NCBI GenBank assembly: GCA_946482655.1
Contig: CAMLSA010000043.1
Coordinates: forward strand, 1-25,458
Source: an uncultured Sphingomonas sp.
Lineage (GTDB): Bacteria > Pseudomonadota > Alphaproteobacteria > Sphingomonadales > Sphingomonadaceae
Direction of reading: 5' to 3'
Length of the DNA stretch: 25,458 nt
The translations under genes and the position numbers were made by a program. Under the pieces are notes generated by a model. The model saw nothing but the letters and a program-made list of their open reading frames with translations, was not told the DNA's origin and did no database searches. Shown one piece after another: positions 2,728 through 23,887 of the stretch. Each line of letters begins with the position of its first letter. Position 1 is the stretch's first letter.

Positions 2728-5091
2728 TCAGGGCCGCGGATCGACGAGATCGATGTCGACCCTTCGGATCTCGCCTTCGAAACGACCCTCATCCTGGTAC
2801 GCCCGCGTCACCGCCATGCCCGGATCATAGCCGATCGCCAGGCCCTCGCCCTGCGCCGCGATATTCACACGGTTCGGGAAACGGCCCTGAGCCGAGGGCT
2901 TGCCGTCGACGAGGATGGATAGGTCCACCGCACGGCTGTCCTTGGCATAGGACACCTTGAAGCTGATCTTGGCGGGACCCTTGCCGACAGCGGCCTGCGT
3001 CTGAACCTTGTAGATGTGTTCCGGCTGCTGGGAATAGGCTTCCAAGACAGTCACACGCCCCTTGTCCAGGTAGAAACTCCAGCCGCCATATTCGTCGCCG
3101 ATCGCCGCGATCACTCCGGAACTGGTGGCACTGGCCGTCACGACATCCGCTGTCAACACGAACGAGTCGGTAAGAATGGGGGCGCCGATGGCCCCTTCGA
3201 CCGGAGTCGTGACGCCCCAATAGGTGTAGCGCGGACGGCGCGGTATCCGCGCGAGACGTTCCGCCTGCACGCGGTCCATCGCGACGCTGGCGTTGAGCGG
3301 ATACACATTGTTGCGGCGCGCCTCGCTATCGAACAGCGCTTGCAGTTCCTTCAGCTTCTGCGGATTGCGCGCCGACATGTCGGTCGACTGGCTGAAATCC
3401 TCTTTCAGGTTATACAGTGCCCACTTGTAATCCTTCGGCGACAGAGCCGGCTCGTTCTTCTCGGACTGCACGACCTTGACTTCCGCAGGAGGCAGGGTGG
3501 ATGCCATCCATCCGTCCTTGTAGATCGCACGCGTGCCAAGCTGTTCGAAATATTGAACCGTTCGTCCCCCGGGCGCATTGGCCGACGCGAACGTGTCGGC
3601 GTAGCTCTTGCCGTCCATCGGTTTCTGCCGGGTCCCGTTCACCATCGTCGGTGCCTGCACGCCGGCCGCCTGCAAGATCGTGGGCACGACATCTATCAGA
3701 TGGGTAAACTGGGGGCGGATGCCGCCCACATCGCTGATTTGCTTGGGCCACGACGTCACCATGCCGTTGCGCATCCCGCCTAGATGGGACGCGTAACGCT
3801 TGAAATATTGGAACGGCGTGTTCATTGCCCAGGCCCAGCCGATCGGATAATGGGCGCGCGAATCCGGGCCCCCGAACTTTTCGAGCTGAGACAACAACCA
3901 CGCATCGGATTCGGGTTGCTGGTTGGCGAGCTTGCCGGTGTCGTCACTCGTGCCGTGCGAGCCGCCCTCCTGGCTGGCGCCGTTATCGCCCTCGACGAAG
4001 ATGATGAGCGTGTTATCCAGCTGCCCCATCCGGGCAAGCTCGTCCACCATGCGCCCAAACTCATGATCCTGATAGGCGAGTTGCGCGGCATAAACCTCCA
4101 TGAGGCGCGCCGCGACCTTGCGTTGACCTTCCGTCAGCGTGTTCCATGCAGGAACGAAGGATGGACGCGCGGTCAACTTCGTGTTGGCGGGAATGATGCC
4201 CTTGCTCTTCTGCTCGGCGAAGATGCGCTCGCGAACGCTGTCCCAGCCGGCATCGAACTTGCCCTTGAAGCGGGCGATCCATTCGGGCGGCGCCTGCAAT
4301 GGCGCGTGCGCCGTGCCGGGTGCGAAATAGATGAAGAACGGCTTGTCCGGCGACGCCGCCTTCTGATCGTGTATCCAGCGGATGGCATCTTCCGCAAGCA
4401 GGTTGTCCAGCACCTTCCCGAAGGGAACGGAGACGCGCGAATTGCCCTTATACAGCGCTGGATGCCACTGGTCGGTGCCAGACGCGACGAAACCGAAGAA
4501 ATACTCGAACCCCAGCCCGGATGGCCAGCTATCAAATGGACCCGCCACTGACTGGGTGGTGGCCTGCGTATCGTGATGTTTGCCGAAGAACGCGGTATTA
4601 TACCCGTTCTGCCGGAGAACTTCGGCGACCGATGCCGTGGATTTGGAGATTTCCCCATAATAGCCTGGATAACCCTGAGCGAACTCCGCCAAGGCGCCCA
4701 TTCCAGCATTATGCGCGTTCCGTCCCGTCAACAGCGCGGCCCTACTCGGCGAGCACATCGCTGTCGTATGAAAATTATTATAGCGCAGGCCGTTGGCGGC
4801 GAGCCGGTCGAGTGCGGGCGTGGGGATCAAGCCGCCGAAGGTGCTGGCTGCGGCGAAGCCAACGTCGTCAGTCATGACGAGAAGAACGTTGGGCGCATCC
4901 GCGCGCGGCCGAGGACGCGCCGGGAATGCCCCCTCGGAGTCCTCGGCGGTTTCGTTGATGACGCCTTGAAAGCGCTCAGGCGGCGGCGGAAGCACCGTGC
5001 CGCCACCTGTCTGCGCGCTGGCTGCGGAGAGACACGGCCCAGCGAGGGCCGTCACAGCCAGCAAACGCACTGCCCACGACAAATTCTTCAA
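2728..5091 (-). CDS. Secreted type I arylsulfatase (formylglycine sulfatase)
   Basis: 787 residues. The alkaline-phosphatase-fold sulfatase core includes the N-terminal metal-binding T-D-D (about residues 74-76) and the maturation motif C-S-P-S-R (Cys about 113), whose Cys becomes formylglycine. Further metal ligands lie in the FFGKHHDTQ and VEGDNGAS segments. The C-terminal ~200 residues form a beta-rich domain. It should hydrolyse sulfate esters in the periplasm; the substrate is unknown. The frame is open from a GTG at 5145, but the TTG at 5091 is preferred: AGGAGA lies 7 bases upstream and the resulting N-terminus is a clean signal peptide ending near AASA-Q. It follows a TonB-receptor remnant on the same strand. 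Local GC looks lower than in the lpt genes. A dedicated anaerobic or FGE-type maturase is not in the window. Confidence 0.9.
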   Translation of the reverse strand: MKNLSWAVRLLAVTALAGPCLSAASAQTGGGTVLPPPPERFQGVINETAEDSEGAFPARPRPRADAPNVLLVMTDDVGFAAASTFGGLIPTPALDRLAANGLRYNNFHTTAMCSPSRAALLTGRNAHNAGMGALAEFAQGYPGYYGEISKSTASVAEVLRQNGYNTAFFGKHHDTQATTQSVAGPFDSWPSGLGFEYFFGFVASGTDQWHPALYKGNSRVSVPFGKVLDNLLAEDAIRWIHDQKAASPDKPFFIYFAPGTAHAPLQAPPEWIARFKGKFDAGWDSVRERIFAEQKSKGIIPANTKLTARPSFVPAWNTLTEGQRKVAARLMEVYAAQLAYQDHEFGRMVDELARMGQLDNTLIIFVEGDNGASQEGGSHGTSDDTGKLANQQPESDAWLLSQLEKFGGPDSRAHYPIGWAWAMNTPFQYFKRYASHLGGMRNGMVTSWPKQISDVGGIRPQFTHLIDVVPTILQAAGVQAPTMVNGTRQKPMDGKSYADTFASANAPGGRTVQYFEQLGTRAIYKDGWMASTLPPAEVKVVQSEKNEPALSPKDYKWALYNLKEDFSQSTDMSARNPQKLKELQALFDSEARRNNVYPLNASVAMDRVQAERLARIPRRPRYTYWGVTTPVEGAIGAPILTDSFVLTADVVTASATSSGVIAAIGDEYGGWSFYLDKGRVTVLEAYSQQPEHIYKVQTQAAVGKGPAKISFKVSYAKDSRAVDLSILVDGKPSAQGRFPNRVNIAAQGEGLAIGYDPGMAVTRAYQDEGRFEGEIRRVDIDLVDPRP

Positions 5092-5758: not shown

Positions 5759-6535
5759 ATGAACGACAGTACCCTTCTAGAACGCGCAGCCGGCCCCGAC
5801 GGCCACAGCGTCGCGCGCGGACTATCGGTGGTGTCGATCGCCAAGACCTACGACAAGCGCCAAGTGTTGACCGACATCTCCCTCGACGTGGCGCGCGGCG
5901 AGGTGGTGGGGCTGCTCGGCCCCAATGGCGCGGGCAAGACGACCTGCTTCTATTCGGTGATGGGGCTGGTGAAGCCCGATGCCGGCCGCATCCTGCTCGA
6001 CGGGGACGACATCACCACGCTGCCGATGTACCGGCGCGCGATCCTCGGCCTCGGCTATCTGCCGCAGGAGACCTCGATCTTTCGCGGCCTCACCGTCTGC
6101 CAGAATATCATGGCGGTGCTCGAGCTGGTCGAGCCCGACAAAGCCCAGCGCGCCGAGCGGCTCGAGGGCCTGCTCAAGGAATTCCACCTCGATCACCTGC
6201 GCGATTCTCCCGCCATGTCGCTGTCGGGCGGCGAACGCCGCCGCTGCGAGATCGCTCGCGCGCTCGCCGCCGATCCGTCGATCATGCTGCTCGATGAGCC
6301 TTTCGCCGGGATCGACCCCATCTCGATCTCCGACATCCGCGAGCTGGTACGCGACCTCAAGCGCCGCGACATCGGCGTCCTGATCACCGATCACAACGTC
6401 CGCGAGACGCTCGACATCGTCGACCGCGCCTGCATCATCTATGACGGCAAGGTGCTGTTCCAGGGCAGCCCCGCCGCGCTGGTGGCCGATCCCAATGTCC
6501 GCCGCCTCTACCTGGGCGAGGGCTTCTCGCTTTGA
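5759..6535 (+). CDS. lptB: LPS export ABC transporter ATP-binding protein LptB
   Basis: 258 residues from the ATG at 5759 (MNDSTLL). An upstream in-frame ATG at 5693 would add 22 residues that do not resemble LptB. The Walker A GPNGAGKTT lies at about residues 54-62, followed by the Q-loop LPQE, the signature LSGGERRR, Walker B IMLLDEPFAGID and the switch His in ITDHNVRET. The LSGGERRR-EIARALA and FAGIDPISI segments are characteristic of LptB. It powers extraction of lipopolysaccharide or glycolipid from the inner membrane with LptF, LptG and LptC. It is followed after 96 bp by rpoN, the usual arrangement. The separation from lptCA by a minus-strand insert is unusual and implies its own promoter. 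Confidence 0.95.
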   Translation: MNDSTLLERAAGPDGHSVARGLSVVSIAKTYDKRQVLTDISLDVARGEVVGLLGPNGAGKTTCFYSVMGLVKPDAGRILLDGDDITTLPMYRRAILGLGYLPQETSIFRGLTVCQNIMAVLELVEPDKAQRAERLEGLLKEFHLDHLRDSPAMSLSGGERRRCEIARALAADPSIMLLDEPFAGIDPISISDIRELVRDLKRRDIGVLITDHNVRETLDIVDRACIIYDGKVLFQGSPAALVADPNVRRLYLGEGFSL

Positions 6536-11103: not shown

Positions 11104-11193
11104 GCCCATGGGGGGCGCGCGCTCGAGATCCTCGCCGCGGTTCCGCCGACGGCGCTGGCCGCGCGGTTCATGATCGACGGGATTACGGGGTGA
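11104..11193 (+). pseudogene. Possible C-terminal remnant of a MarC-type membrane protein
   Basis: In the short gap after folD the frame ending at TGA 11191-11193 reads RALEILAAVPPTALAAR then FMIDGITG. This resembles the end of MarC/UPF0056 proteins (R-L-L-G-x-x-L-A-A-x-A-V-Q-F-x-x-D-G-I). Only about 25 residues remain, with no start. It overlaps the last codons of the convergent antiporter gene by 11 bp. The match is short and could be chance. Confidence 0.28.
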
Positions 11194-12838
11194 CGGCCGG
11201 CTTCCCCTTCAGCAGTTGCAGCATCGCACCGGCGATCGCGCTCTCGCCCATCACCACCTCGCAGGTGCCGAGCTTCTGGAGATGCTCGGCCTCGGCATCG
11301 CTGTGCGCCCGGGCGATCACGCGCAGATCGGAACTGAAGCGGCGCGCCCGTTCGAGAATCGCGCCAGCCTCGTATCCTTCCGGGATCGCGATGATCAGCA
11401 CGTCGGCGCTGGGCAGGCCCGCCGCTTCGAGCACCGCGTCGTCGACAGCGTTCCCGTCCACCACCTCGATCCCCTGCGCCATCGCCTCCCGGGCCCGTTC
11501 TGGATCATCCTCGATCACTACAACCCAACGGCCGCTGGCGCGCAAGTCCGCGTGGACTCGGGTGCCGACCCGGCCGAAGCCGACCAGCACGACATGGCCA
11601 CTGACGGGTGCCGGCCCATCGGGTGCCGGTTCGACAGGACCGGCGGCCGCTGGCTTCTTCGCCTTTCGCGGCACGGCCAGTGAGAAGAGGAAGGGATTGA
11701 GGAAGATCGAGATGATTGCACCGGCGAGGATCAGATCACGCCCCTCCGACGGCAATATGCCGAGACCGGTGCCGAGCGAAGCCAGGATGAAGGAGAATTC
11801 GCCAATCTGGGCAAGGCTGGCGGCCACGGTCAGCGCAGTCTCGCTCGAATGACGGAAGGCGCGGACGATTGCATAGGCTGCCGCGGACTTGCCGACGATG
11901 ATGATCGCGACCACCCCGAGCAGCGGGAGCGGCTGTTCGACCAAAACTCCCGGATCGAACAACATGCCGACCGAGACGAAAAACAGCACCGCGAAGGCGT
12001 CGCGCAGGGGGAGCGTTTCCTCGGTCGCGCGGCGGCTGAGCGGGGTTTCGCCGAGGATCATGCCGGCGAAGAATGCGCCAAGCGCGAAGGACACGTCGAA
12101 GATCATCGCCGCGCCGAACGCCACGCCAAGCGCGATCGCGAGGACGGCGAGGCGGAACAGCTCGCGCGAGCCGGTGTGGACCACCCAATGCAACACCCAC
12201 GGGATCACCCGCCGGCCCACGATCAGCATCACCGCCACGAAGCCCGCCACCTTGAATGACGTTCCCGCGAGGGCGGTCGCGATCGCCATCGTGCCGCCGT
12301 CCGCCGCATCATTGAAGGCATGATCGAGCGCGGGCAGCAGAACGAGGGCGAGCACCATTGCCAGATCCTCCACGATCAGCCAGCCGACCGCGATGCGGCC
12401 TCGCTCGCTATCGACGAGGTCGCGGCCCTGTAGCGCCCGCAACAACACCACCGTGCTGGCGACCGACAGAGCGAGGCCGAACACGAAGCCGGCGAGCGGC
12501 GTCCAGCCCATCACCCCAGCCATGGCCGAGCCGAGCAGGGTCGCCACCGCGATCTGCACGATGGCGCCCGGCAGCGCGATCCGGCGCACCGACAGCAAGT
12601 CGCGCAGCGAGAAATGCAGTCCGACGCCGAACATGAGGAGGATGACGCCGATCTCGGCGAGTTCGTTTGCCAGGCCGCTATGGGCGACGATGCCGGGTGT
12701 GAATGGGCCGACGACGACACCCGCAATGAGATAGCCCGCAATCGGGGAGATGCGGAGGCGATGGGCGAGCGCACCCATGAAGAAGGCGACGACGAGCGCC
12801 GCGACGATCGTGGCGATCAGAGGCGTGTGGTGCGGCAT
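11183..12838 (-). CDS. ybaL: YbaL-like CPA2 monovalent cation:proton antiporter with RCK domain
   Basis: 551 residues from the ATG at 12838 (MPHHTPLIATIV), chosen because AAGGA lies about 6 nt upstream; the frame opens 21 nt earlier. The N-terminal ~390 residues form about 12 membrane segments of a Na+/H+-exchanger (PF00999) domain. The segments RISPIAGYLIAGVVVGPFTPG, LLMFGVGLHFSLRDL, STVVLLRAL and IGWLIVEDLAMVLAL correspond closely to E. coli YbaL. A TrkA-N (RCK) domain follows, with the Rossmann motif VVLVGFGRVGTRVHADL at about 410-426. It probably exports K+ or Na+ in exchange for H+, gated by nucleotide binding. It lies last in a minus-strand set behind two small membrane proteins, with a strong palindrome just before its ribosome-binding site. 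Confidence 0.93.
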   Translation of the reverse strand: MPHHTPLIATIVAALVVAFFMGALAHRLRISPIAGYLIAGVVVGPFTPGIVAHSGLANELAEIGVILLMFGVGLHFSLRDLLSVRRIALPGAIVQIAVATLLGSAMAGVMGWTPLAGFVFGLALSVASTVVLLRALQGRDLVDSERGRIAVGWLIVEDLAMVLALVLLPALDHAFNDAADGGTMAIATALAGTSFKVAGFVAVMLIVGRRVIPWVLHWVVHTGSRELFRLAVLAIALGVAFGAAMIFDVSFALGAFFAGMILGETPLSRRATEETLPLRDAFAVLFFVSVGMLFDPGVLVEQPLPLLGVVAIIIVGKSAAAYAIVRAFRHSSETALTVAASLAQIGEFSFILASLGTGLGILPSEGRDLILAGAIISIFLNPFLFSLAVPRKAKKPAAAGPVEPAPDGPAPVSGHVVLVGFGRVGTRVHADLRASGRWVVVIEDDPERAREAMAQGIEVVDGNAVDDAVLEAAGLPSADVLIIAIPEGYEAGAILERARRFSSDLRVIARAHSDAEAEHLQKLGTCEVVMGESAIAGAMLQLLKGKPAVTP

Positions 12839-12855
12839 GTTTTTCCTTGTGGACT

Positions 12856-12886
12856 CCACGGGATCGGCACGAATCCGATCCCGTGG
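12856..12886. repeat. Perfect 12-bp inverted repeat upstream of the ybaL-like gene
   Basis: CCACGGGATCGG (12856-12867) and CCGATCCCGTGG (12875-12886) are perfect reverse complements around a 7-nt loop. The element fills most of the 56-bp gap between the stop of the 35-residue protein and the antiporter start. It could be an intercistronic stem-loop, attenuator, operator dyad or dispersed palindrome. No U-tract follows on the minus strand, which disfavours a plain terminator. Confidence 0.6.
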
Positions 12887-13093: not shown

Positions 13094-13507
13094 TCAGCTA
13101 TTTGGTGGAGGCCGCGCGTAGAGCGCCCTGCCAAGCGCGCGCGGGACGAAGAAAAGCGCGCTCACCGCCACCGCCGCGCCGAGGTTGACGGCGATCGTGC
13201 CGAAGAACCGGATCGCAGCTGCGGGGATCAGCACCTCGCCGCCGTCCGCTCCCCCCATGCCGCTGCCGCCATCGTCGGAGCGCAGGATCGACGTCTTTAC
13301 CGTGACCGGTGGCTTGGAGCGTAGCGCCACGATCGTCGTCGACGGATCGAAGGCCGACCCGGTCGTCCGTGTCGCGGGCAGGCCAGCCGGCACCACCGCG
13401 CAGACGATCGCCGTCGCCAGCGATATCCACAGCGCAAGGACGAACAACAGCCGGTTGCCCAGGCCGCTCACGCCCGCGCGCGGACCGAGGGTGTAATCGT
13501 CGTGCAT
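13094..13507 (-). CDS. Unrecognised two-TM membrane protein
   Basis: 137 residues from the ATG at 13507 (MHDDYTLGPRAG). The longer open frame from 13684 adds Arg/Ser-rich sequence without features and would overlap the upstream gene. One hydrophobic helix lies at about residues 19-41 (LLFVLALWISLATAIVCAVV). A middle loop of about 65 residues is rich in Ser, Gly and Asp, including DDGGSGMGGADGGE. A second helix lies at about 103-127. The loop is probably periplasmic. I cannot assign a family. It precedes the 35-residue protein and the antiporter on the same strand and follows the GT-C-like gene by 97 bp. Confidence 0.65.
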   Translation of the reverse strand: MHDDYTLGPRAGVSGLGNRLLFVLALWISLATAIVCAVVPAGLPATRTTGSAFDPSTTIVALRSKPPVTVKTSILRSDDGGSGMGGADGGEVLIPAAAIRFFGTIAVNLGAAVAVSALFFVPRALGRALYARPPPNS

Positions 13508-13604
13508 CGACGCCTGCCTAGCACAAGAGCCGCGAATGGACCATTGCCCCGCGCCGCGCCCGGCGTACACGTCATCGGCAAGGCTGACGGAGGAACGGCG
13601 GACC

Positions 13605-15377
13605 TTACCCCGCCATCCGCCACAGCTTGAACGGCGAATCAGCGGGCAGCTGGACCGGCTCGAGCCAGGCCGGGATGCGCTCATCCATCAGCTGCATGTA
13701 GAACCCTTCGCGCGCCTGCGCCTTATAGATGGTCGACTCCGCCATGCCGGGGCAGAGCAGCAGCATCGTTGCGCCGTGGCGCTTCATCACCGCGCGCGCC
13801 GCCTCGGGCGATTTGGAGCGGAACGCCTTCTGGACCTCGAGGATCACCTCGCCGTTGCGGTGATAAGGCCCGGCGATTGCGCTGTGGCGGGTCATCGCGA
13901 TCAGACGCGGTCCCATGTCGATGAAGGTGAGCATGGTGGCGGGCGGCAGGGCGTCTAGCTGACGGAGCGCGGGCAGGGTGAGGCAACGTCGGGCGACGTT
14001 GCCGGCCCTGGCGTGGACGCCGGCCTTGCGCACTTCCGTGGTGCTCTTGGGGATCATCGTAACGAACTGGGCGATCTGCCCCGACAGCGCGAAGAAGGCG
14101 AGCAGCGTGCCCCCGACCCGAACCGGCGCTGACGGCGCGTCGAGCAGCCGGGGGAGAATCATCCAGGCGAGCGCGGTCGCGCCGAACACGCCCATCAGCT
14201 GCGCCTGCGGACCGAATCGCGACTGCCAGGCGAGGCCCAGCGTGCCCATCAGGCTGAGCAGGGTGATCGACAGCCAGGCGGGGCCGTTCGGACCCGCCCG
14301 CGCGCGCCAGAAGGCGATCACCGCGCCGATCGTGCCGACCACCGGCAGATAGGCGATGTCGAGCGCGTCGCGCCACGGCTTGCTATGGAGCGGCCGGACC
14401 TCGCGGACATTGGTGAACCACAGCCGCTCGAGTTCGGGCGAGATCGCTTCGGGCCGCCCCAGACACTGCGGAAAGGCGATCGCGAAGAAGCTGGCGATGA
14501 TCCCCCCCGCGGCGATCAGCAGCGTCAGCCGCAACCCGCGGCTCTCGGCCCTGACGAAGCTCAGGCCGAGCAGCAGCGCGCCGGTCAGCAGCAGCGTCGA
14601 AAGATAGACCGGCGACAGCACGTCACAGACCAAGCGGCGATTGTCGTAGGAGGCGAAGCCGCCGAACGCGACCGCGCAGCCCCCGCCCAGGGTGATCGCA
14701 TAGGCCGCCATCCGATCGGCCTCGTCGCGGTGCCACGCCCAGCGCAGCGCGATCGAGGCGCCGGCGATCGCCATCATCGGGATCAGTTCGAGCCCGATGC
14801 CGAACGAGATCGCGGTGGCGAGCCCGGCGGTCGCGCCGCCGCGCCGCCCGCGCGGGTCGGCGAGGCCGGCGACGACCAGCATCAGCATGGTGAGCTGCCA
14901 GCCATGGTGATCGATGCGCAGCGGCATCCACATGAACAATGTGGTCTGAGCACACATCAGGATCGCGAAGGCGATCGGATAGGCGCGCGGATGGACCAGC
15001 CGCCGCACGCCGAGGATCATGCCCCACAGCGCCGGCGCCAGCGCCAGCATCGGGGCCACCGCGCAGGCGATGCGCTGCGCGGTGAAATCGCCGAAGATCG
15101 GCTTGAAGATCAGGATCAGCGCCGCGATCGGCAGATCGACGATGCGTGACCAATGGATGTCGAGACCTTCGGGCGGCGCGAGCTTGTGCTGCCGCAAGTC
15201 GAACCAGGGCTGCCCGTCGAGCCAGGCCTTGACCTCGGCGAGCCGCATGTTGTCGTCGGTGTCGCTGAGCGCGAGCCAGCGGACCTGGCCCCATTTATAC
15301 TGGAGGAAATAGAGGCAGGCGCCGAGGAACATCAGCCAGAAGACCGTGCGCCAGCGGCGCTCGATCCACGCCATCAT
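13605..15377 (-). CDS. Polytopic GT-C-like membrane protein A (oligosaccharyltransferase-like motifs)
   Basis: 590 residues from ATG 15377, chosen because GAGGA lies just upstream; alternatives are 15413 and 15479. There are about 11 hydrophobic segments and then a soluble C-terminal domain of about 130 residues. The first loop carries D-T-D-D-N-M-R-L (about residues 39-46) and then IHWSR, a conserved LPIAALIL helix, and R-I-D-H-H-G-W-Q (about 154-161). The C-terminal part has MTRHSAIAGPYHRN. The protein at 19570-21387 shares all of these in the same order, so the two are paralogues. A D-x-D in the first loop and a D-x-H at a second site are the metal-binding pattern of STT3/AglB-type GT-C enzymes. 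Function is inferred: transfer of a lipid-linked sugar on the periplasmic side. An RND pump is ruled out by length and topology. Confidence 0.75.
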   Translation of the reverse strand: MMAWIERRWRTVFWLMFLGACLYFLQYKWGQVRWLALSDTDDNMRLAEVKAWLDGQPWFDLRQHKLAPPEGLDIHWSRIVDLPIAALILIFKPIFGDFTAQRIACAVAPMLALAPALWGMILGVRRLVHPRAYPIAFAILMCAQTTLFMWMPLRIDHHGWQLTMLMLVVAGLADPRGRRGGATAGLATAISFGIGLELIPMMAIAGASIALRWAWHRDEADRMAAYAITLGGGCAVAFGGFASYDNRRLVCDVLSPVYLSTLLLTGALLLGLSFVRAESRGLRLTLLIAAGGIIASFFAIAFPQCLGRPEAISPELERLWFTNVREVRPLHSKPWRDALDIAYLPVVGTIGAVIAFWRARAGPNGPAWLSITLLSLMGTLGLAWQSRFGPQAQLMGVFGATALAWMILPRLLDAPSAPVRVGGTLLAFFALSGQIAQFVTMIPKSTTEVRKAGVHARAGNVARRCLTLPALRQLDALPPATMLTFIDMGPRLIAMTRHSAIAGPYHRNGEVILEVQKAFRSKSPEAARAVMKRHGATMLLLCPGMAESTIYKAQAREGFYMQLMDERIPAWLEPVQLPADSPFKLWRMAG

Positions 15378-15642
15378 CCGGTCCTCGAACTGTTCCTGTG
15401 CCCCATCCCGCATCCGCACCCGCTTAGGGGCAGGCAGGGCTCCCCGCAACGGGCCATCGTCAGGCGCCCCGCCCGTCATAAACGCGTCGGCGACCGGTCA
15501 CGTAGCTTTAATGCGGCTCCTGCGCCCGGCGCGCTCCGATGCGCGGCGAAGGCTCGTTCCGCTTCCGTTAAGGTTGCCCGCGGCGATAATGGCGAATCCG
15601 CACGACGGAGACGGGGGCCTGGACTGGCAATTTCCGCCCCCC

Positions 15643-15690
15643 GGGAGACGCTCCTTCGGGGTTCCCTTGCCCCGGGGAGCGCTTTCTCCC
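15643..15690. repeat. Large imperfect hairpin in the gap before gtrA
   Basis: The region 15480-15826 holds no gene I can support. It contains nested complementary arms: GGGAGA and CGCTCC (15643-15654) pair with GGAGCG (15676-15681) and TCTCCC (15685-15690), and an inner GGGG (15658-15661) pairs with CCCC (15670-15673). A second small palindrome, CTCCGC-TTT-GCGGGAG, follows at about 15713-15728. These could form the leader of the gtrA operon or be decayed dispersed palindromes. No clear promoter was identified. Confidence 0.5.
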
Positions 15691-15826
15691 ACCATTCCGG
15701 CCAGGAATATCCCTCCGCTTTGCGGGAGAGGCCCGCGTGGAGCGGAGCATTCGCGGCAAGGCGCGATAGACCCGGGATCCGCCGCCGCTTGAGGCATTCC
15801 CGCTTTTGTGGAAGAGCGCGCGGACG

Positions 15827-16243
15827 ATGCATGAGATGTCCCTGAAGAACCGCGAGCGGATGGCGCTGCTCGGCCAGCTCGTCCGGTACGGGGTTACCGG
15901 GCTGCTGGCCTCGCTGGTCAACATCGGCATCTATCATGCGTGCGTGAAGCTCGGCCGGCTCGATCCCAATCTGGCCTGGGCGATCGGCTTCGTCGGCGCC
16001 GCCGGGGCAGGGTACGTCATGCACGGCGCGTACAGCTTCAAGGGCCATGGCGGCCGCGACCGGCAGCATATCCGCATCGGGCGCTTCACGATCGTTTCGC
16101 TGATCAGCTTCGCGCTCAACAGCCTGTGGGTCTGGCTGCTCGTCCAATATATGGACCTGCCGCTCTGGGCGCCCTATCCGCTGGTGCTGTGCATAACGCC
16201 GCTCCTGGTCTTCTGGCTCAACCGCCAATGGGTGTTCGAATGA
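15827..16243 (+). CDS. gtrA: GtrA family membrane protein (putative lipid-linked sugar flippase)
   Basis: 138 residues from the ATG at 15827; ATG 15836 is an alternative, and a TTG at 15806 has less support. There are four hydrophobic helices with the family hallmarks: QLVRYGVTGLLASLVNIGIY at the start, F-x-x-x-Y-S-F in the middle (YVMHGAYSFKG), and a closing FWLNRQWVFE (PF04138). GtrA-type proteins are thought to flip undecaprenyl-phosphate-linked sugar across the inner membrane. The stop overlaps the gtrB start (ATGA), so the pair is translationally coupled, the usual gtrAB order of serotype-conversion and teichoic or arabinan modification loci. Sugar identity cannot be inferred. Confidence 0.9.
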   Translation: MHEMSLKNRERMALLGQLVRYGVTGLLASLVNIGIYHACVKLGRLDPNLAWAIGFVGAAGAGYVMHGAYSFKGHGGRDRQHIRIGRFTIVSLISFALNSLWVWLLVQYMDLPLWAPYPLVLCITPLLVFWLNRQWVFE

Positions 16244-17214
16244 ACCCGCCCCTCCTTTCGGTGATCGTGCCGGTCAAGGACGAGGAGGACGCGATCCAGC
16301 CCTTCGTCACCCGAGTCGGCGGCGTGCTCGATGCGCTGCGCGATCCGGCGGGCGCGCCGATCGGCTGGGAGGTCATCTTCATCGACGACGGCAGCAGCGA
16401 CCGGACCATGGCGGCCATCCTGACCGCACATGATGCCGACCCGCGCATCGGCGCGTTGTCGCTGTCGCGCAATTTCGGCAAGGAGGCGGCGCTGTCCGCC
16501 GGGCTCGACAACGCCCGCGGGCAGGTGGTCGTGCCGATCGACGTGGACATGCAGGATCCCCCCGAGGTGATCGGCGCGATGATCGACAAATGGCGGGAGG
16601 GCTATGAGGTCGTTTACGGAGTGCGTCGCAACCGGATGAGCGACAGCCTCCCCAAGCGGCTGACCGCCGATCTCTATTATCGCGCGCACAACTGGCTCTC
16701 GCAGGACAAAATCCCGGAGCATGCCGGCGACTTCCGCCTGCTCGACCGCAAGGTCGTCGAGGTGATCAGGCGAATGCCGGAGCGCAACCGCTTCATGAAG
16801 GGCCTGTTCGCCTGGTCGGGCTTTCGCCAGACCGCGGTCGACTATGACCGTTCCGAGCGCGCCGTCGGCCGGACCAAGTTCAACTATTGGAAGCTGTGGA
16901 CGCTCGCGATCGACGGCATTACCTCGGCCTCCACCGTTCCCTTGCGGGTCTGGTCCTATCTCGGCGCGGTCATCGCACTGTTCGCGCTGGTCTATGCGGT
17001 GTTCATCGGCGTGCGCACATTGCTCTACGGCACCGATGTGGCGGGCTATCCCTCGCTGATGGTGGCGATATTGTTCATGGGCGGGGTACAGCTGCTCTCG
17101 CTCGGCGTGCTCGGCGAATATGTCGGACGCATACTGGTCGAGACCAAGCACCGCCCGATCTACATCATCCGCCAAAGGGTGGGCTGCGCCGAGCGCGCCG
17201 AGGATGCCGCCTGA
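16240..17214 (+). CDS. gtrB: GtrB-like polyprenyl-phosphate glycosyltransferase (GT2)
   Basis: 324 residues from ATG 16240 in the gtrA stop. The N-terminal GT-A domain reads LLSVIVPVKDEEDAI, EVIFIDDGSSDRT (about 45-57), SLSRNFGKEAALSAGLDNARG, then the metal site V-P-I-D-V-D-M-Q-D-P-P-E at about 96-107 and DFRLLDRKV. Two C-terminal TM helices (about residues 230-305) end with LGEYVGRILVETKHRPIYII. This is the dolichol-phosphate-glucose/mannose synthase-like subfamily that loads a sugar on undecaprenyl phosphate at the cytoplasmic face. It couples to GtrA and to a downstream methyltransferase (TGATG overlap). The donor nucleotide sugar is unknown. Confidence 0.93.
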   Translation: MNPPLLSVIVPVKDEEDAIQPFVTRVGGVLDALRDPAGAPIGWEVIFIDDGSSDRTMAAILTAHDADPRIGALSLSRNFGKEAALSAGLDNARGQVVVPIDVDMQDPPEVIGAMIDKWREGYEVVYGVRRNRMSDSLPKRLTADLYYRAHNWLSQDKIPEHAGDFRLLDRKVVEVIRRMPERNRFMKGLFAWSGFRQTAVDYDRSERAVGRTKFNYWKLWTLAIDGITSASTVPLRVWSYLGAVIALFALVYAVFIGVRTLLYGTDVAGYPSLMVAILFMGGVQLLSLGVLGEYVGRILVETKHRPIYIIRQRVGCAERAEDAA

Positions 17215-17948
17215 TGGATCGCGCCATCTATGACCGCATGGCCGAGATCGACCGTGACCATTGGTGGTTCGTCGCCCGTCGCAGGATCATCGCCCGGCTG
17301 ATCGAGAGCTACCGCCCCAAGCCGGCCCCGCTGAAGATCCTCGAGGTCGGCGCGGGCACCGGTTCGAACCTAGAGCTGCTCCAGAGCTTCGGCACGGTCG
17401 ACGCGATCGAGCCCGACGACGGCGCGCGGGCCTTGGCGGAAGCGCGCAGCGGGCTCAAGCTCAAGGGCGGCTACCTGCCGCATGTGCCGCTCGACGACGG
17501 CGCTTATGACCTGATCGTCCTGCTCGACGTGCTCGAACATATTCCCAGGGACGTCGAGGCGCTCGCCTATCTCAAGCACAAGCTGGCGCCGGGCGGCCGG
17601 ATCATCGTCACCGTACCGGGCAGCCCCTGGATGTGGAGCGCGCATGACGTCGCCCATCATCATCAGCGCCGCTACACCGGCGCCGGCCTCAAGCGCGTGT
17701 TCCGCGACGCCGGGCTGCGCCCGCGCTACCTCACCCATTTCAACAGCCTGCTCTTCCCGCTGATCGCCGGGGTGCGGCTGGCGGGCAAGCTGCTCGGACG
17801 CGGCGGCGGCGGCGACGACGCGATGCCGCCTGCACCCGTCAATGCCGCGCTGAAGGCGATCTTCGCCGCCGAGCGTCACTGGATGGCGATCTTGTCCATC
17901 CCCTTCGGCGTGTCCATAGCGATCGTGGCCGAACCGACGATCCGATAG
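17214..17948 (+). CDS. Class I SAM-dependent methyltransferase
   Basis: 244 residues from ATG 17214, which shares one base with the gtrB stop. Motif I is ILEVGAGTGSNLELL at about residues 42-56, the acidic motif II region is IEPDDGARALAEA, and motif post-I is YDLIVLLDVLEHI at about 97-109, followed by LKHKLAPGGRIIVTVPGSPWMWSAHD. The early D-H-W-W-F motif (about 16-20) is shared by methyltransferases in polysaccharide and glycolipid clusters. It may O-methylate a sugar or act on a lipid intermediate; the substrate is not known. The last 73 bases overlap the 3' end of the convergent gene 17876-19492. Confidence 0.88.
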   Translation: MDRAIYDRMAEIDRDHWWFVARRRIIARLIESYRPKPAPLKILEVGAGTGSNLELLQSFGTVDAIEPDDGARALAEARSGLKLKGGYLPHVPLDDGAYDLIVLLDVLEHIPRDVEALAYLKHKLAPGGRIIVTVPGSPWMWSAHDVAHHHQRRYTGAGLKRVFRDAGLRPRYLTHFNSLLFPLIAGVRLAGKLLGRGGGGDDAMPPAPVNAALKAIFAAERHWMAILSIPFGVSIAIVAEPTIR

Positions 17949-19492
17949 AGTGCGCCGCGCTCGCCGCCGTTCCAGATCAGCTTCAGGGTCGGATCGCTGC
18001 CGGGCCAATGGTCGCGCGAGGCGTTGATCAGCCAGACATAATCGAAGGCTTGGCGCGGGAAGAGCGCCAGCGAGCTCTGGATCGAGCGGGCGCGCGGCGC
18101 GCGGCAGTGCTTGGGCCGCATCACCTGGGTCGGATCCTCGGCATAGCCTTTGGCCGGCGCATATTTGATGCTCAGCAGTTGCGCGCCTGGCATCGTCCAC
18201 TGGCCGTTGACGAAGGCGTCGCGCCGGACGATCGCCATCGAGCCGAGATGCTCGAGCCTGGGCGATTCCCAGCGCGACAGGCAGGGCAGATCGACCAGCG
18301 CGAATACCCGGCGCTCGCGCTCCACATGATCGAGCGCCGCGAGCTGTGACTCCTGATAGTCGGAGAAGGCCTTGAACCGGACGGTCGAGTGATAGACGCG
18401 CACCCCGAAGATGATGAGGCCAAGCGCCGCGACGGCGCCGAGTGCGATCCGGTTGGTGAAGCAGGGTACCACCCCGATCACCCCGATCGCGATGACATAG
18501 GGCGCCAGCCGCATGTCGGCATAGGCCGATCCGATCACGATGCGCGGCATCAATATATAGGCGATGATCAACACCAGCGTCGCGACGCCCAAGGTGCGGC
18601 GCATGCGGAAGCCATATTCCCGGGCGCCCAGCGAGGTCAGCCCGAACAGCACCAGCAGGACCAGCCCGCTCACCAGGCCTATGTCGAACGTCATCCAGTG
18701 ATTGCGCAGCGACGAGATCAGATAGACATATTTGGCGACCCAGTTGAACCAGTCGGTGGTCTCGCCGGCGACCGCGCCCGAGCGCCAGAGCAGCATCAGC
18801 AGCATCGGCGGGGCGAGTGGAAGGCAGTGGAGCGCGCCGCGCCACAGCGATTCGAGATGGCCACGTCCCTCGACGTCGCGCATCCTCACCATCTCGGCCG
18901 CGAAGGCGAGCAAGCCGAGCACGCCCCACGCGAAGCCGTGCGCAAGCCAGATCAGTGCCCCGATCGGCACGAACAGCGCGGCGCGCAACCTGATCCGGCC
19001 GGTCCGCGCCAGATAAAGCCACAGCGCGAACGCGTTGAGCGCCAGCGCCATCGCCAGCACATAATTGATGAAACCCCATTGGAAGGGCCAGCTATAGGCG
19101 AAGGGCGCGACCAGGCCGGCGGTCGCCGGCAGCCGGCCATGGACCTCGCGGGCGATCAGCAGCAGCCCGGTGATGGTGAGCGGCGGCACCATCATGACGA
19201 TCAGCTTCACGCCCAGTTCGAGGCCGAAGATCTTGGCCATCGGAACGATCAGCAGATCGACGCCGAGGTTGCCCATCAGCGCCCATCGGAAACTGAAATA
19301 GCGGGTCAGCAGCGGCGACGAGGGATCGGCCAGCTCGACCCGATAGCGCCCCATATGCCCCATCAGATCGATCAGCGGCGGCACCGTCGGCTGCAGCAGC
19401 GGAATGATCGAGACGACCCCGAGCAGGACGATATACCCGTCGCGGGTCCACCAGCCGGAAGGAGGGGTTATAGGTGGGGTCGACCGGAACAT
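17876..19492 (-). CDS. Polytopic GT-C-like membrane protein C
   Basis: 538 residues with about 11-12 hydrophobic segments covering residues 18-390 and a soluble C-terminal domain of about 150 residues. The first periplasmic loop has P-P-L-I-D-L-M-G-H-M-G-R-Y (D about 42, H about 46), an acidic/His arrangement placed like the catalytic motif of GT-C glycosyltransferases. Other blocks are SWPFQWGFINYVLAMALALN and IWLAHGFAWG. It is not clearly homologous to the two D-H-H paralogues nearby, although the C-terminal domains share a P-x-x-C-R pattern (MRPKHCRAPR). Probably a periplasmic sugar transferase using polyprenyl-phosphate donors, by context and topology only. Its 3' end overlaps the methyltransferase gene by 73 nt, tail to tail. 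Confidence 0.72.
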   Translation of the reverse strand: MFRSTPPITPPSGWWTRDGYIVLLGVVSIIPLLQPTVPPLIDLMGHMGRYRVELADPSSPLLTRYFSFRWALMGNLGVDLLIVPMAKIFGLELGVKLIVMMVPPLTITGLLLIAREVHGRLPATAGLVAPFAYSWPFQWGFINYVLAMALALNAFALWLYLARTGRIRLRAALFVPIGALIWLAHGFAWGVLGLLAFAAEMVRMRDVEGRGHLESLWRGALHCLPLAPPMLLMLLWRSGAVAGETTDWFNWVAKYVYLISSLRNHWMTFDIGLVSGLVLLVLFGLTSLGAREYGFRMRRTLGVATLVLIIAYILMPRIVIGSAYADMRLAPYVIAIGVIGVVPCFTNRIALGAVAALGLIIFGVRVYHSTVRFKAFSDYQESQLAALDHVERERRVFALVDLPCLSRWESPRLEHLGSMAIVRRDAFVNGQWTMPGAQLLSIKYAPAKGYAEDPTQVMRPKHCRAPRARSIQSSLALFPRQAFDYVWLINASRDHWPGSDPTLKLIWNGGERGALYRIVGSATIAMDTPKGMDKIAIQ

Positions 19493-19547
19493 CGGGGTTG
19501 GCCCTTATGTCGGGCGCAGCGCGGGGGCAAGAGGCGTGCCCATGGGT

Positions 19548-19562
19548 CTCCCGTCACGGGAG
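19548..19562. repeat. Short palindrome between two GT-C-like genes
   Basis: CTCCCG-TCA-CGGGAG forms a 6-bp stem just after the stop of the 19570-21387 gene and before the start of the 17876-19492 gene. It is a possible intercistronic hairpin. No T-tract follows on the minus strand. Confidence 0.35.
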
Positions 19563-19569
19563 GACGAGG

Positions 19570-21387
19570 TCAGTCGGTTCGCCGCCACAGCCTGAGCGGA
19601 CTCCCCGCCAGCGGCACGGGCCGCAGCCAGGCGGGCGCATCGCCCTTCAGCAGCATCGCCATCAGCCCGTTCGGTGCGCCCTTCGCGTAGATTCCGGCCT
19701 CGGCCCCCTGCGGATCGACGAGGACATAGTCCATGCCATGGGCCGCCATCATCGCCCGGGCGGCTTCGGGCGGGCCGCGAAAGGCGTCGACCACCCGGCG
19801 GATCGCCTGGGGAGCGCGGTGGTGGCCGCTGGCGGCATAGCTGTGCCGGGTCATGATCAGCAGCCGGGGAGTCAGATCCAGCCCGGCGAGGATATAGGCG
19901 CGCGGCAGCCGGGCGAGCGCGGCGAAGCGGTCGCAGGGCGCGCGGCACGGCGCGGGGCGGGCCGCTTCGCGCCGCTCGGGCTGATCGATCACGCGACTGG
20001 CGACGAAACCCCCAGCTATCATCGCGCCGACCGGCGACAGCGCCATGATCGCCCCCGCCGAGACGAGGGCGCGGACCGGCACCTGCCGTCCTTTGGCGAT
20101 CCGATCGAGCAGCCGCGCGAGCAGATAGCCGGCACCCGGCAGCGCGCAACCATGGGCGAAGCCGCCTGCGCGCTGGACGAGCAGCGACACCGCGAAGGCA
20201 GCAAGCAGCAGCCCGAGCATGGCCTGCCAGTTGCGCGCCGCGGTAGCGGTCGTCGCGCTGCGCCAGCCGAGCAGCGTGCCGGCGATGCCGATCAGCGGAA
20301 AACCGACGAGCATCGATACATTGTCGATCGGCTGGCGCCACACCGGCAGCCCCTCGGCGACATGGTCATACCAATATTCCCGTACCACCGGATCGAGCGT
20401 GGCGAAGGGACCGTCGAGACAGGCCGGCGCCATGGCGGCGAGCAGCCCCGCGCCGACCGCACCGGCGAGGAACAGCACCCCGGCGCGGGGGATCCGGCCG
20501 TGCCGGGTCCCGAGCGGCACGAGCAGTGCGGCGAGCGCCGGCGCCGCCATGACCGGCCCGAACCATGCGGGGCTGACCGCGTCGCAATGATATTGCGACC
20601 AGGCCGCGCGTCCGTGAAAGGCGGCGAACAGCGCGATGCCGCTGCCGGCGAGCATCGCCGAGAAAACGCCGAAGCGGATCGCCGCTCCGTCTTCCTCGCC
20701 CTCGAACAGGAAGCGCAGCGCGAGCATGGTGGCGATCACGACCACCATCGGCAGCGCCTCGAGCGAGATGGCCAGCCACAGCGCCGCGCACGCCCCGGCG
20801 ACAAGGCCGCCGCGCCGCGCCCGGGGATCGAAGCAGGCGGCGACGGTGAACAGACCGAGCATCGTCTGCCAGCCATGATGATCGATCCGCGTGGGCATGA
20901 CGTGGAAGAGCAGAAGCGGCGCCGTCGCCGCGAGCATCAACGCGATCAGCGCGGCGCGGGCCCCGGCGAGGCGGCTGCCCGTGAGCGCCAGCGCGACCAT
21001 CGATCCGCCGAGCGTGATCAGCGGCATCACCGCCACTGTCACCCGCTCGGCGGCCATGTCGCCCAGCAGCGGCTGAAGCAGCAGGATCATGCCGGCGATC
21101 GGCAGGTCGACGAGCCGCGACCAGTGCATGGGCACGCCGTGCGGAGGATCGATCCGATATTGCGCGACATCGAGAAAGGCCTGTCCGCCGAGCAGGTCGC
21201 GCACCTGCTGCAGCCGCAGATAATCGTCGGCGTCCAGCATCGTGAGGCTGACGATATTCGTCCAGGCGATGCCGAGCAGGATTGCGCAGGCGAGCAGCCA
21301 GGCGGCGAGGATGCCGAGACGGAAGCGCGCGGGCGTAACCTTATCTGTGCTTCCCGTAAGAGAAGGAGGCGGACGCTCGGTCCACAA
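19570..21387 (-). CDS. Polytopic GT-C-like membrane protein B, paralogue of protein A
   Basis: 605 residues from a TTG at 21387, supported by AGGAAGG about 9 nt upstream; no ATG or GTG lies in frame before the first helix. There are about 11 hydrophobic segments plus a soluble C-terminal domain. Shared blocks with protein A (13605-15377) are D-A-D-D-Y-L-R-L (residues 52-59), PPHGVPMHWSRLVDLPIAGMIL, T-R-I-D-H-H-G-W-Q (167-174), MTRHSYAASGHHR, and a closing P-x-x-L-W-R. The D-x-D plus D-H-H layout resembles STT3/AglB-type oligosaccharyltransferases, whose two metal motifs occupy the same loops. The start lies 1 nt after the stop of the upstream flavoprotein, so translation is probably coupled. 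Function remains inferred. Confidence 0.78.
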   Translation of the reverse strand: MWTERPPPSLTGSTDKVTPARFRLGILAAWLLACAILLGIAWTNIVSLTMLDADDYLRLQQVRDLLGGQAFLDVAQYRIDPPHGVPMHWSRLVDLPIAGMILLLQPLLGDMAAERVTVAVMPLITLGGSMVALALTGSRLAGARAALIALMLAATAPLLLFHVMPTRIDHHGWQTMLGLFTVAACFDPRARRGGLVAGACAALWLAISLEALPMVVVIATMLALRFLFEGEEDGAAIRFGVFSAMLAGSGIALFAAFHGRAAWSQYHCDAVSPAWFGPVMAAPALAALLVPLGTRHGRIPRAGVLFLAGAVGAGLLAAMAPACLDGPFATLDPVVREYWYDHVAEGLPVWRQPIDNVSMLVGFPLIGIAGTLLGWRSATTATAARNWQAMLGLLLAAFAVSLLVQRAGGFAHGCALPGAGYLLARLLDRIAKGRQVPVRALVSAGAIMALSPVGAMIAGGFVASRVIDQPERREAARPAPCRAPCDRFAALARLPRAYILAGLDLTPRLLIMTRHSYAASGHHRAPQAIRRVVDAFRGPPEAARAMMAAHGMDYVLVDPQGAEAGIYAKGAPNGLMAMLLKGDAPAWLRPVPLAGSPLRLWRRTD

Positions 21388-21388
21388 A

Positions 21389-22924
21389 CTACGCCGCCTT
21401 CCTGGCTGCGATCCGCCTCGGCACCAGCCGCTCCGACCGCAGCGCCGCGGCGAGCCCTTCGCCGTCGCCTTCCGAACCCGCCTCGTGATATTCGGCGTCC
21501 TCGTTGACCGCCCAGACGTCGTGGCGGCGGCTGCCCGAGACGATGTTCCGCGCGGTGAGCATCGCGGTCATCATCGCATGATCCTGATTATTGTAGCGGT
21601 GCATGCCGTTGCGCCCGACGAAGTGGAGCGTCGGATAGCGCGCCTCGAGCTCCTCGCGCACCGCGGCGACATTGGCGGCATAATGGTCGTCATAGACCGG
21701 ATATGCCTTTTCCTGGCGCACCACCGTCCCGCCGACCACCTGCGCCGGGTCGCACAGGCCGAGCTGCGCCAGCTCCCGCGTCGCCAGTTCGACCAGATCC
21801 TCGTCGGACGAGGACCACAGCCCGTCACCCTCGAAGCAGAAATATTCGAGACCGACGCAGGCGAGCTCGTCGTCGGGCACCATCTCGGGTGACCAGCTGC
21901 GGAAATTCTGGATCCGCCCTACCTGGACCTTGTCGTCGTGGATGTAGATCCAGTTGTCGGGGAACAGGTCCTCCGAACGGATCATCAGCGCGACGGTCAG
22001 GAAGTCGCGATAGCCGAGCGCCATCGCCTGCGGCAGGCTCGCCGGCATCGGATGGATGCGGGCGGCGAGCTCGCGCATCGGCGCCGAGCTGATCACATGA
22101 TCCGCGGTGAGCATCGTCAGCCGCCCGTCCCCGCCCATCGCCGCCACCCGCCAAAAGCCGCCGGTCGCGTCCCAGCTGAGCTGGTGGAGCTTGTGGCCCA
22201 TCAGCAGGCTGTTGCCCTGCTCGACGATGCGGTCGCGCGCCGCGTCCCACATCATGCCCGGCCCCCTGCGCGGATAACGGAAGTTCTCGAGCAGGGTCTT
22301 GGCCTGCATCCCGTCATTGGGACGCTTGTTGAGCCCGAGCGAACGCTTGATCCCGTCGAGCACCGCCTTGCCGAGGCTCAGCCCCTTGATGCGCTGGGCG
22401 GCCCAGTCGGCCGACATCTCGCCGCACTCCATGCCCCACACCTTCTCGGTATAGGTCTTGAAGAAGATGCCGAACAGCCGCGCGCCGAACTGATTGACCA
22501 CCCATTGTTCGAAGCTCCGGACCTCCTTGTGGGGGAACAGCTTCCAGCGGAAATAGGAGGCCATGCACAGCGTCGACTGGATCAGGCCGAGATTGCACAG
22601 CGCCTCGAAGGCCCGCAGCGGATAGCTGTAGAATTTGCCCCGATAATAGATCCGGCTCATTCGCGGCCGCTCGATGAAGTCGTCCGGCAGCAGCTCGTTC
22701 CACAGATCGACCACCTCGCGCGACTTCGAGAAGAAGCGGTGGCCGCCGATATCGAAGCGGAAGCCCTCATGCTCGACGGTGCGGCTGATCCCGCCGACCT
22801 GCTCCGGATCCTTCTCGATCAACCTGACCGAGAAGCCCTCCTTGCCGAGCATGTAGCCCGCGGTGAGCCCTGCCGGACCGGCACCGACGATCGCTACGTC
22901 AACATGGGTGGCGGCGCGCGGCAT
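21389..22924 (-). CDS. FAD-dependent amine-oxidase/GLF-like oxidoreductase
   Basis: 511 residues. The N-terminal Rossmann FAD motif reads VAIVGAGPAGLTAGYML (G-x-G-x-x-G at about 14-19), with the ribose-binding E37 in RLIEKD, then GGISRTVEHEGFRFDIGGHRFF, typical of the NAD(P)-binding-8/amino_oxidase group (PF13450/PF01593) that includes protoporphyrinogen oxidase and UDP-galactopyranose mutase. The C-terminal FAD segment is FVGRNGMHRYNNQDHAMMTAM. GAGGA lies 9 nt before the ATG. Members are often found in cell-surface glycan clusters beside gtrA/gtrB. It might interconvert or oxidise a nucleotide sugar or lipid-linked sugar, but a true UDP-galactopyranose mutase is shorter (about 370-400 residues), so the reaction is unassigned. 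It heads the minus-strand set with GT-C-like proteins B and C. Confidence 0.85.
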   Translation of the reverse strand: MPRAATHVDVAIVGAGPAGLTAGYMLGKEGFSVRLIEKDPEQVGGISRTVEHEGFRFDIGGHRFFSKSREVVDLWNELLPDDFIERPRMSRIYYRGKFYSYPLRAFEALCNLGLIQSTLCMASYFRWKLFPHKEVRSFEQWVVNQFGARLFGIFFKTYTEKVWGMECGEMSADWAAQRIKGLSLGKAVLDGIKRSLGLNKRPNDGMQAKTLLENFRYPRRGPGMMWDAARDRIVEQGNSLLMGHKLHQLSWDATGGFWRVAAMGGDGRLTMLTADHVISSAPMRELAARIHPMPASLPQAMALGYRDFLTVALMIRSEDLFPDNWIYIHDDKVQVGRIQNFRSWSPEMVPDDELACVGLEYFCFEGDGLWSSSDEDLVELATRELAQLGLCDPAQVVGGTVVRQEKAYPVYDDHYAANVAAVREELEARYPTLHFVGRNGMHRYNNQDHAMMTAMLTARNIVSGSRRHDVWAVNEDAEYHEAGSEGDGEGLAAALRSERLVPRRIAARKAA

Positions 22925-23063
22925 GTACTTTCCTCAGCTCCCGGATATCGGCGGGACCATGGGCGATGAGGCGCTAAGGGATGGTTAATGGATTCCGGAG
23001 TCCACCCTCTCTAGGCGGCCTTATTTAGTTCACCTCGCCCGCATCCCGCGCTACACCCGCCGG

Positions 23064-23297
23064 ATGACGGGCAACACGATCTTCTTCTTCCTGATCCTCG
23101 CCGCGATGATCGCGACGGTGGTGGCGCTGGTGCGCGGGATCATCGCCTTCCTCAGGACGACCGAGGCCGATCTCAAGGGCGGCGGTATCAGCCAGTCGGG
23201 GCTCAAGCAGAACAGGATGATGCGGATGCGGATCGCCTTTCAGGCGCTCGCGGTGATTCTCGTCATCCTGCTGCTGATCTTGAGCCGCGGCGAATAG
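23064..23297 (+). CDS. HIG1-type twin transmembrane small protein
   Basis: 77 residues with two hydrophobic helices (about 5-29 and 57-73). The connecting segment EADLKGGGISQSGLKQNRMMRMRIAFQ is basic and contains the Q-N-R-M-M-R-x-R-I-x-F/x-Q pattern of HIG_1_N domain proteins (PF04588). In mitochondria the family helps assemble respiratory supercomplexes; in bacteria its role is poorly known. It starts at ATG 23064 without a strong ribosome-binding site and lies 20 bp before the cobalamin adenosyltransferase gene, a pairing common in alphaproteobacteria. It is divergent from the flavoprotein gene across 139 bp. Confidence 0.8.
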   Translation: MTGNTIFFFLILAAMIATVVALVRGIIAFLRTTEADLKGGGISQSGLKQNRMMRMRIAFQALAVILVILLLILSRGE

Positions 23298-23317
23298 GCG
23301 AATAGGCGAGCGGCTTC

Positions 23318-23887
23318 ATGGTCCGCCTCAACAGGATTTACACCCGCACCGGCGACAAGGGCGAGACCGGGCTGGTCGACGGCTCGCGGCTGCCCAAACA
23401 TGCCCCGCGCATGGCCGCGATCGGCGATATCGACGAGCTCAACTCGGCGATCGGCGTCGCGTTGACCCACCCGATGACGCCGGCCGCCCGCGACATGCTC
23501 GGCCGCATCCAGAACGAGCTGTTCGACCTCGGTGCCGATTTCGCCACCCCGGGACCCGATTTCACACCATCGGAAATGACCCTGCGCATGGTCGCTTCGC
23601 AGGTCGAGCGGCTCGAGCGCGAGATCGATGCGATGAACGAGGATCTCGATGCGCTGCGCAGCTTCGTCCTGCCCGGCGGCAGCGCGGCGGCGGCGGCGGT
23701 CCACCTCGCCCGCGCGATCTGCCGCCGCGCCGAGCGCTCCGCGGTGGCGGCGGACGGGGATGCCGGGCTCAACCCGGTCGGGTTGAGCTATGTCAACCGG
23801 CTGTCGGATCATCTGTTCGTGCTGGCCCGCCACCTCAACCGCGCCGGCGCGGGCGACATCCTGTGGCGGCCCGGTGCGACGCGTTAA
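23318..23887 (+). CDS. Cob(I)alamin adenosyltransferase, PduO type
   Basis: 189 residues. The ATP-binding N-terminal motif NRIYTRTGDKGETGLVDGSR (residues 5-24) is diagnostic of PduO/MMAB-type adenosyltransferases (PF01923). The fold is helical and includes the FVLPGGSAAAAAVHLARAICRRAER block (about 126-150) and a closing SYVNRLSDHLFVLAR. It transfers the adenosyl group of ATP to cob(I)alamin, giving coenzyme B12 for enzymes such as methylmalonyl-CoA mutase. It is cytoplasmic. It probably shares a transcript with the HIG1-type gene. The stop overlaps the stop of a convergent 42-residue gene by 3 nt. The symbol is left blank because pduO, cobO and mmaB usage differs. Confidence 0.94.
   Translation: MVRLNRIYTRTGDKGETGLVDGSRLPKHAPRMAAIGDIDELNSAIGVALTHPMTPAARDMLGRIQNELFDLGADFATPGPDFTPSEMTLRMVASQVERLEREIDAMNEDLDALRSFVLPGGSAAAAAVHLARAICRRAERSAVAADGDAGLNPVGLSYVNRLSDHLFVLARHLNRAGAGDILWRPGATR

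Follow-up and report, generated by a model that had tools for sequence, protein, structure and literature searches.

A seven-gene Sphingomonas locus with two linked candidate routes of extracytoplasmic glycosylation, one of which perhaps places a furanose

This work concerns a stretch of 25,458 nucleotides from an uncultured Sphingomonas sp. (contig CAMLSA010000043.1 of assembly GCA_946482655.1; hereafter the window), a GC-rich piece of sphingomonad chromosome in which seven genes, in the order A, gtrA, gtrB, methyltransferase, B, C and flavoprotein, occupy positions 13605-22924. A previous interpretation made from the letters alone (the sequence-only reading) had placed there a gtrA-gtrB-methyltransferase set, three GT-C-like proteins and a flavoprotein, and these seven genes were recovered as described. 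The main finding is that the locus is made of two modules: A, GtrA, GtrB and the methyltransferase form a complete set side by side (module 1), and the flavoprotein is tied to a C-type gene rather than to the whole set (module 2). We consider it on balance probable that these modules constitute two linked routes that add single sugars outside the inner membrane, one of which perhaps places a furanose. The picture of three distinct transferases around one gtrAB pair, as first proposed, gives way to these two modules, which occur apart in many other Sphingomonas genomes.

Module 1 contains the predicted loading and flipping functions. GtrA (15827..16243, plus strand), a putative polyprenyl-phosphate-sugar flippase, matches PF04138 with E 9.2e-21 (74.7 bits, cut-off 26.1); its open reading frame (ORF) spans 15806-16243 and the ATG at 15827 is the likely start. 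GtrB (16240..17214, plus strand; 324 residues), a putative polyprenyl-phosphate hexose synthase, matches PF00535 (E 1.7e-25), shows two C-terminal hydrophobic segments by hydropathy and is a near full-length homolog of the Synechocystis GtrB sll0501 (5ekp; E 2.7e-107, residues 6-313). The class I methyltransferase (17214..17948, plus strand) matches PF13489 (E 8.5e-16) and has one C-terminal hydrophobic segment by hydropathy; both this ORF and that of GtrB were scanned against Pfam with their upstream extensions. The ORFs of GtrA and GtrB overlap by 4 bases and those of GtrB and the methyltransferase by 1 base. Protein A (13605..15413, minus strand; 602 residues) is encoded divergently in an ORF of 13605-15479, and the methionine encoded at 15413 is where its relatives begin. 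The 413 bases between the divergent genes A and gtrA (15414..15826) likely carry the promoters of both; a sigma-70-type scan of 13400-23400, this intergenic region included, found no site. In all 17 genomes chosen from B-bearing loci, an A-type gene is the divergent neighbour of a GtrA, and 14 of 30 fetched GtrA loci contain an A/C gene, each of these 14 with the methyltransferase and GtrB as well. Five of those 14 loci have a GtrB of the window type (78-89% identical); the other nine have a distant type (36-41%) that converges with the methyltransferase. The gene identities support the gtrA-gtrB-transferase logic of the sequence-only reading.

In module 2 the evidence is a strict pairing. Among 196 Sphingomonadales genomes, each of the 54 flavoprotein genes has an A/C-type gene on its own strand no more than about 2 kb away; together with the 14 of 14 loci that combine an A-type gene and GtrA, this bears out the co-conservation across the order on which the earlier proposal had hinged. 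In the window, the flavoprotein (21389..22924, minus strand) is the first of three genes in a shared direction, followed by C (19570..21387, minus strand; 605 residues, with an uncertain TTG start) and B. The flavoprotein matches NF005545 (PRK07208.1-1) with E 1.5e-285, and UDP-galactopyranose mutases (UGM) are the best matches to it among solved structures. Its N-terminal 246 residues are homologous (residues 5-246, E 1.5e-25) to the eukaryotic-like enzyme 3ute, which we take to be that of Aspergillus fumigatus (AfUGM). H62 and R178, invariant in 16 of 16 aligned sequences, align with H63 and R182 of AfUGM under an inferred numbering offset; we assume these to be the histidine-loop and diphosphate-binding positions, respectively. 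The flavoprotein is closest to UDP-galactopyranose mutases, and the earlier GLF-like label stands, though the Pfam GLF model scores below its cut-off. A GtrA lies between the flavoprotein and the A/C-type gene in 16 of 20 selected loci. In six sphingomonads (L221-L226), a flavoprotein-A/C gap of 1.9-2.0 kb holds an extra membrane ORF; both that were scanned (L221 and L223) match PF00884, and the encoded protein may be a head-group transferase that belongs to this pathway.

The three polytopic proteins were called distinct in the sequence-only reading. They look instead like one superfamily, whose relationship to GT-C enzymes is supported by profile comparison only. A and C are STT3/PglB-like putative GT-C transferases, 33% identical paralogs that have in common the motifs D-x-D-D, H-W-[ST]-R and R-[IV]-D-H-H-G-W-Q, and B (17876..19492, minus strand; 538 residues) is by profile comparison their remote homolog. 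Only diverse alignments (69 rows for A/C, 96 for B) gave a signal. On the STT3 side, eight PglB-like STT3 proteins were fetched by PF02516 (a ninth match over the cut-off, L182, is unlike STT3 and was excluded), and hhalign was run in global mode. Aligned end to end, A/C scores 21.0-21.7 against STT3, whereas the reversed profile gave 3.0, 60 window shuffles at most 9.3 and eight other polytopic families at most 6.4. B scores 34.0 against A/C, as compared with at most 7.8 in 50 shuffles and 4.8 for eight other families; compared directly with STT3 by profile, it gave no signal. In these alignments D75 of A falls on the first-loop acid D68 of STT3 and D190-H-H on the D-T-D at 178-180. Both are invariant in 19 of 19 sequences. 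Where STT3 has W-W-D-x-G, A/C reads D-x-[GT]-P, and the WWDYG motif is absent. The exchange of D-T-D for D-H-H is also found in archaeal AglB.

Single-sequence searches gave little. The A2 members fall below the PF02516 cut-off (best of 19, E 0.1; one of 19 listed at E<=1), no PF02516 match passed the cut-off in six genomes, and C showed only a weak hint of TIGR04154 (STT3; E 0.002; 16.5 bits, where the cut-off is 450). Sequence searches of the PDB returned no match at E<=1 for A2 and A1 and one chance-level match (E 0.73) for B alone. The original GT-C-like label was a guess with no Pfam model behind it, but the kinship it named gains support from profile comparison. Two other assignments were discarded: profile comparisons gave no support to a PMT_2-type GT-C kinship of A/C and B, and the name 'AcrB/AcrD/AcrF family protein', which NCBI records give to relatives of A and which is probably a propagated misnaming, had no corresponding Pfam match. 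The named homologs of B belong to Sphingomonas and Rhizorhabdus. In a tree of 69 A/C proteins, from which two short ones were dropped, the GtrA-side and flavoprotein-side genes form separate supported clades and a third clade pairs with B. Twenty of 24 rows in the A clade adjoin GtrA; 19 of 20 in the C clade lie no more than two genes from a flavoprotein, and in the twentieth (L005) the flavoprotein is cut by the contig end.

The distribution of B connects it with A/C. Across the 196 genomes, A/C occurs in 84 and B in 45, the two together in 35 (Fisher p 1e-7), and all 25 genomes with B above 500 bits fall among the 33 with A/C above 500 bits. The B scan yielded 312 confirmed stretches, and the best 80 of them, taken as loci, contain A/C in 57, GtrA in 21, the methyltransferase in 20, GtrB in 19 and the flavoprotein in 19, with A, C, GtrA, GtrB, methyltransferase and flavoprotein all present in 10. 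Another gene of the set lies within 1.5 kb in 24 of the 29 best B loci from the order sample (that of genome G001 apart). Repeated B-A/C-B-B arrays at L046 and L061 suggest that the A/C-B pair is locally duplicated in some Sphingomonas. At L141 (contig C1 of G001), a second B paralog stands beside GtrA and a weak GtrB match, apart from the main locus. Near nine B loci (L001:3334-4950 and eight others) there is a PMT_2-like GT-C protein on the opposite strand, matching PF13231 in five of the nine and located beside an argG-type gene where one is present.

From gene content, homology and linkage we infer the activities, sugars, membrane sidedness and acceptor of both routes. In the first, GtrB would load a hexose from a nucleotide sugar onto polyprenyl phosphate, GtrA would flip the resulting polyprenyl-phosphate hexose, and A, as an STT3-like GT-C enzyme, would transfer the hexose in the periplasm, while the methyltransferase may modify the sugar or its carrier. 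In the second, the flavoprotein would turn a UDP-pyranose into a UDP-furanose, with UDP-galactofuranose as a first guess; the furanose would be loaded onto polyprenyl phosphate and flipped by a GtrA, here presumably the only one of the locus, and C would transfer it. We propose this role for C because it is the simplest reason for the invariable flavoprotein-A/C pairing. B, the third and diverged member, could act with either route. A bolder reading, which we hold to be less likely than not, is a new Sphingomonadales pathway that would lead from a UGM-like flavoprotein through UDP-furanose, polyprenyl phosphate and GtrA to single-sugar transferases derived from STT3, at surfaces free of lipid A.

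Previous studies describe related systems. The Gtr-type three-component systems of Shigella, Salmonella and Klebsiella, as presented in PMC11127046, likewise have a GtrA flippase, a GtrB synthase and an adjoining GT-C-type transferase. The present locus differs in its family of STT3-like transferases, for which Pfam has no model, an extra methyltransferase, a second module with a mutase-like enzyme, housekeeping flanks in the window and a host group with no sign of lipid A. The pentofuranose three-component systems (GT136; PMC11127046), similar in outline, also use a GT-C enzyme to add a furanose from a lipid-linked donor on the extracytoplasmic side, the furanose being proposed in our case; they derive it from phosphoribosyl pyrophosphate (PRPP) and use a MATE flippase, whereas the locus has a UGM-like flavoprotein and GtrA. 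To STT3/PglB (GT66), A/C aligns globally over its full length, and three motif regions coincide in position, but it remains below the PF02516 cut-off, lacks WWDYG and carries D-H-H instead of D-T-D.

Several results weigh against the two proposed routes. Among the transferase-like proteins, no Pfam family matches A, B or C at E<=0.1, none of the three reaches a Pfam cut-off and no NCBIfam model reaches its own; HHalign with less diverse alignments gave no signal, and B is devoid of the D-H-H motif. Ten of the 45 B genomes have no A/C match, and 5 of the 29 B loci have no neighbouring gene of the set. For the furanose route, the C-terminal UGM match of the flavoprotein is not significant alone and Pfam GLF gives 19.2 bits under a cut-off of 26.3. 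Where a GtrA intervenes, its match is modest (E 2e-4 to 2e-7); 4 of the 20 fetched flavoprotein loci showed none between the two genes, and in the clade of the window flavoprotein and C likewise have no GtrA between them. No synthase of a polyprenyl-phosphate furanose was identified, and 5ekp, the best solved relative of GtrB, is, as we assume, a glucosyl enzyme. Outside the order, in 240 genomes of the class, the flavoprotein occurs in 15, of which 6 have an A/C match; it adjoins A/C in 2 of the 15, G001 itself included.

Lipid A is an improbable acceptor, since LpxC was found in none of six close genomes and in none of the 196 Sphingomonadales genomes sampled, in a search whose controls detected it in 4 of 14 genomes, E. 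coli and Caulobacter among them. This agrees with the earlier remark that the group has no classical lipopolysaccharide (LPS), and LPS as acceptor is unlikely for the same reason. Of the glycolipid or protein acceptors then favoured, a glycosphingolipid is weakened though possible; the other candidates are surface polysaccharides, outer-membrane proteins and further glycolipids. A more specific alternative, that A, B and C each add one sugar to GlcA-ceramide, would agree with the lack of LpxC and would suit three transferases, one for each sugar that the four-sugar form has beyond the first, and PMC6445935 describes glycosphingolipids with one, three or four sugars in place of LPS in sphingomonads. 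That text, however, reports monoglycosylated forms only for Sphingomonas wittichii RW1, which weakens a glycosphingolipid acceptor, and has the Caulobacter sugars added sequentially by Sgt1 and then Sgt2 (PMC6445935). We hold three additions to GlcA-ceramide to be quite improbable. Strain RW1 is, we presume, of the same genus as the relatives of the window, and Sgt1 and Sgt2 are not known to be GT-C enzymes. Elsewhere in the window, LptC-, LptA- and LptB-like genes (1391-2131, 2128-2670 and 5759-6535) would correspond to an LPS export bridge without lipid A, and a large PF00884 sulfatase (2728-5091, minus strand) lies between lptA and lptB on the opposite strand.

A and C could alternatively be true oligosaccharyltransferases that, like PglB, take an oligosaccharide preassembled on a lipid and transfer it en bloc to proteins. 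Profile comparison indeed finds no closer known relatives of A and C than PglB-like STT3 proteins, and the alignment matches the first-loop acid, the DxD and the WWDxG positions, but the last of these reads D-x-[GT]-P. GtrA/GtrB systems, according to PMC11127046, handle single sugars on a monophosphate. The Pfam scans of the window genes listed no oligosaccharide flippase or assembly gene and no Wzx, Wzy or O-antigen ligase family, the latter in line with the sequence-only reading, and en bloc transfer seems distinctly unlikely. As for the flavoprotein, we regard it as rather unlikely that, instead of being a mutase, it oxidises or epimerises a nucleotide- or lipid-linked sugar after a DprE1-like logic. 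It does match the amine-oxidase family PF01593, oxidases and desaturases are among its relatives of like fold, and the GLF score is under the cut-off, yet mutases are ahead of the first oxidase among solved structures (E 1.5e-25 against 4.4e-8) and the residues aligned with H63 and R182 of AfUGM never vary. Finally, independent envelope genes may have gathered at one chromosomal site with no common product, which would fit the separation of the modules in many Sphingomonas, the convergence of two transcription units and the housekeeping anchors. The linkage inside the modules (54 of 54 and 14 of 14) and the constant company of A/C with high-scoring B speak against independence, so we judge such a chance gathering somewhat improbable.

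Turning to the layout, the methyltransferase and B are convergent and overlap by 73 bases. Codon-usage scores select the annotated frame for all seven genes, third-position GC is 0.86-0.90 in A, B, C and the flavoprotein, and chance ORFs are ruled out, the genes being kept in relatives at up to 90% identity. The flanking anchors are the housekeeping genes argG and folD/argB. Between folD and A there is a YbaL/Kef-type antiporter gene (11183-12859, minus strand), as also in L001 and L004; in many relatives this position holds only a gene of cluster c24, presumably MarC-like.

A literature search, with most subscription papers outside its reach, showed no description of the locus or the family among the titles and abstracts listed. 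The load-flip-transfer logic is known, and the transferase family and its pairing with a mutase-like enzyme appear to be new. A/C (84 of 196 genomes) and B (45 of 196) are widespread in Sphingomonadales, yet unnamed or misnamed in the database records consulted. If they are transferases, they would represent a branch between the oligosaccharyltransferases and the Gtr enzymes and would show how the surface is decorated in Gram-negative bacteria free of LPS, and the strict pairing of flavoprotein and A/C makes the sugar experimentally testable.

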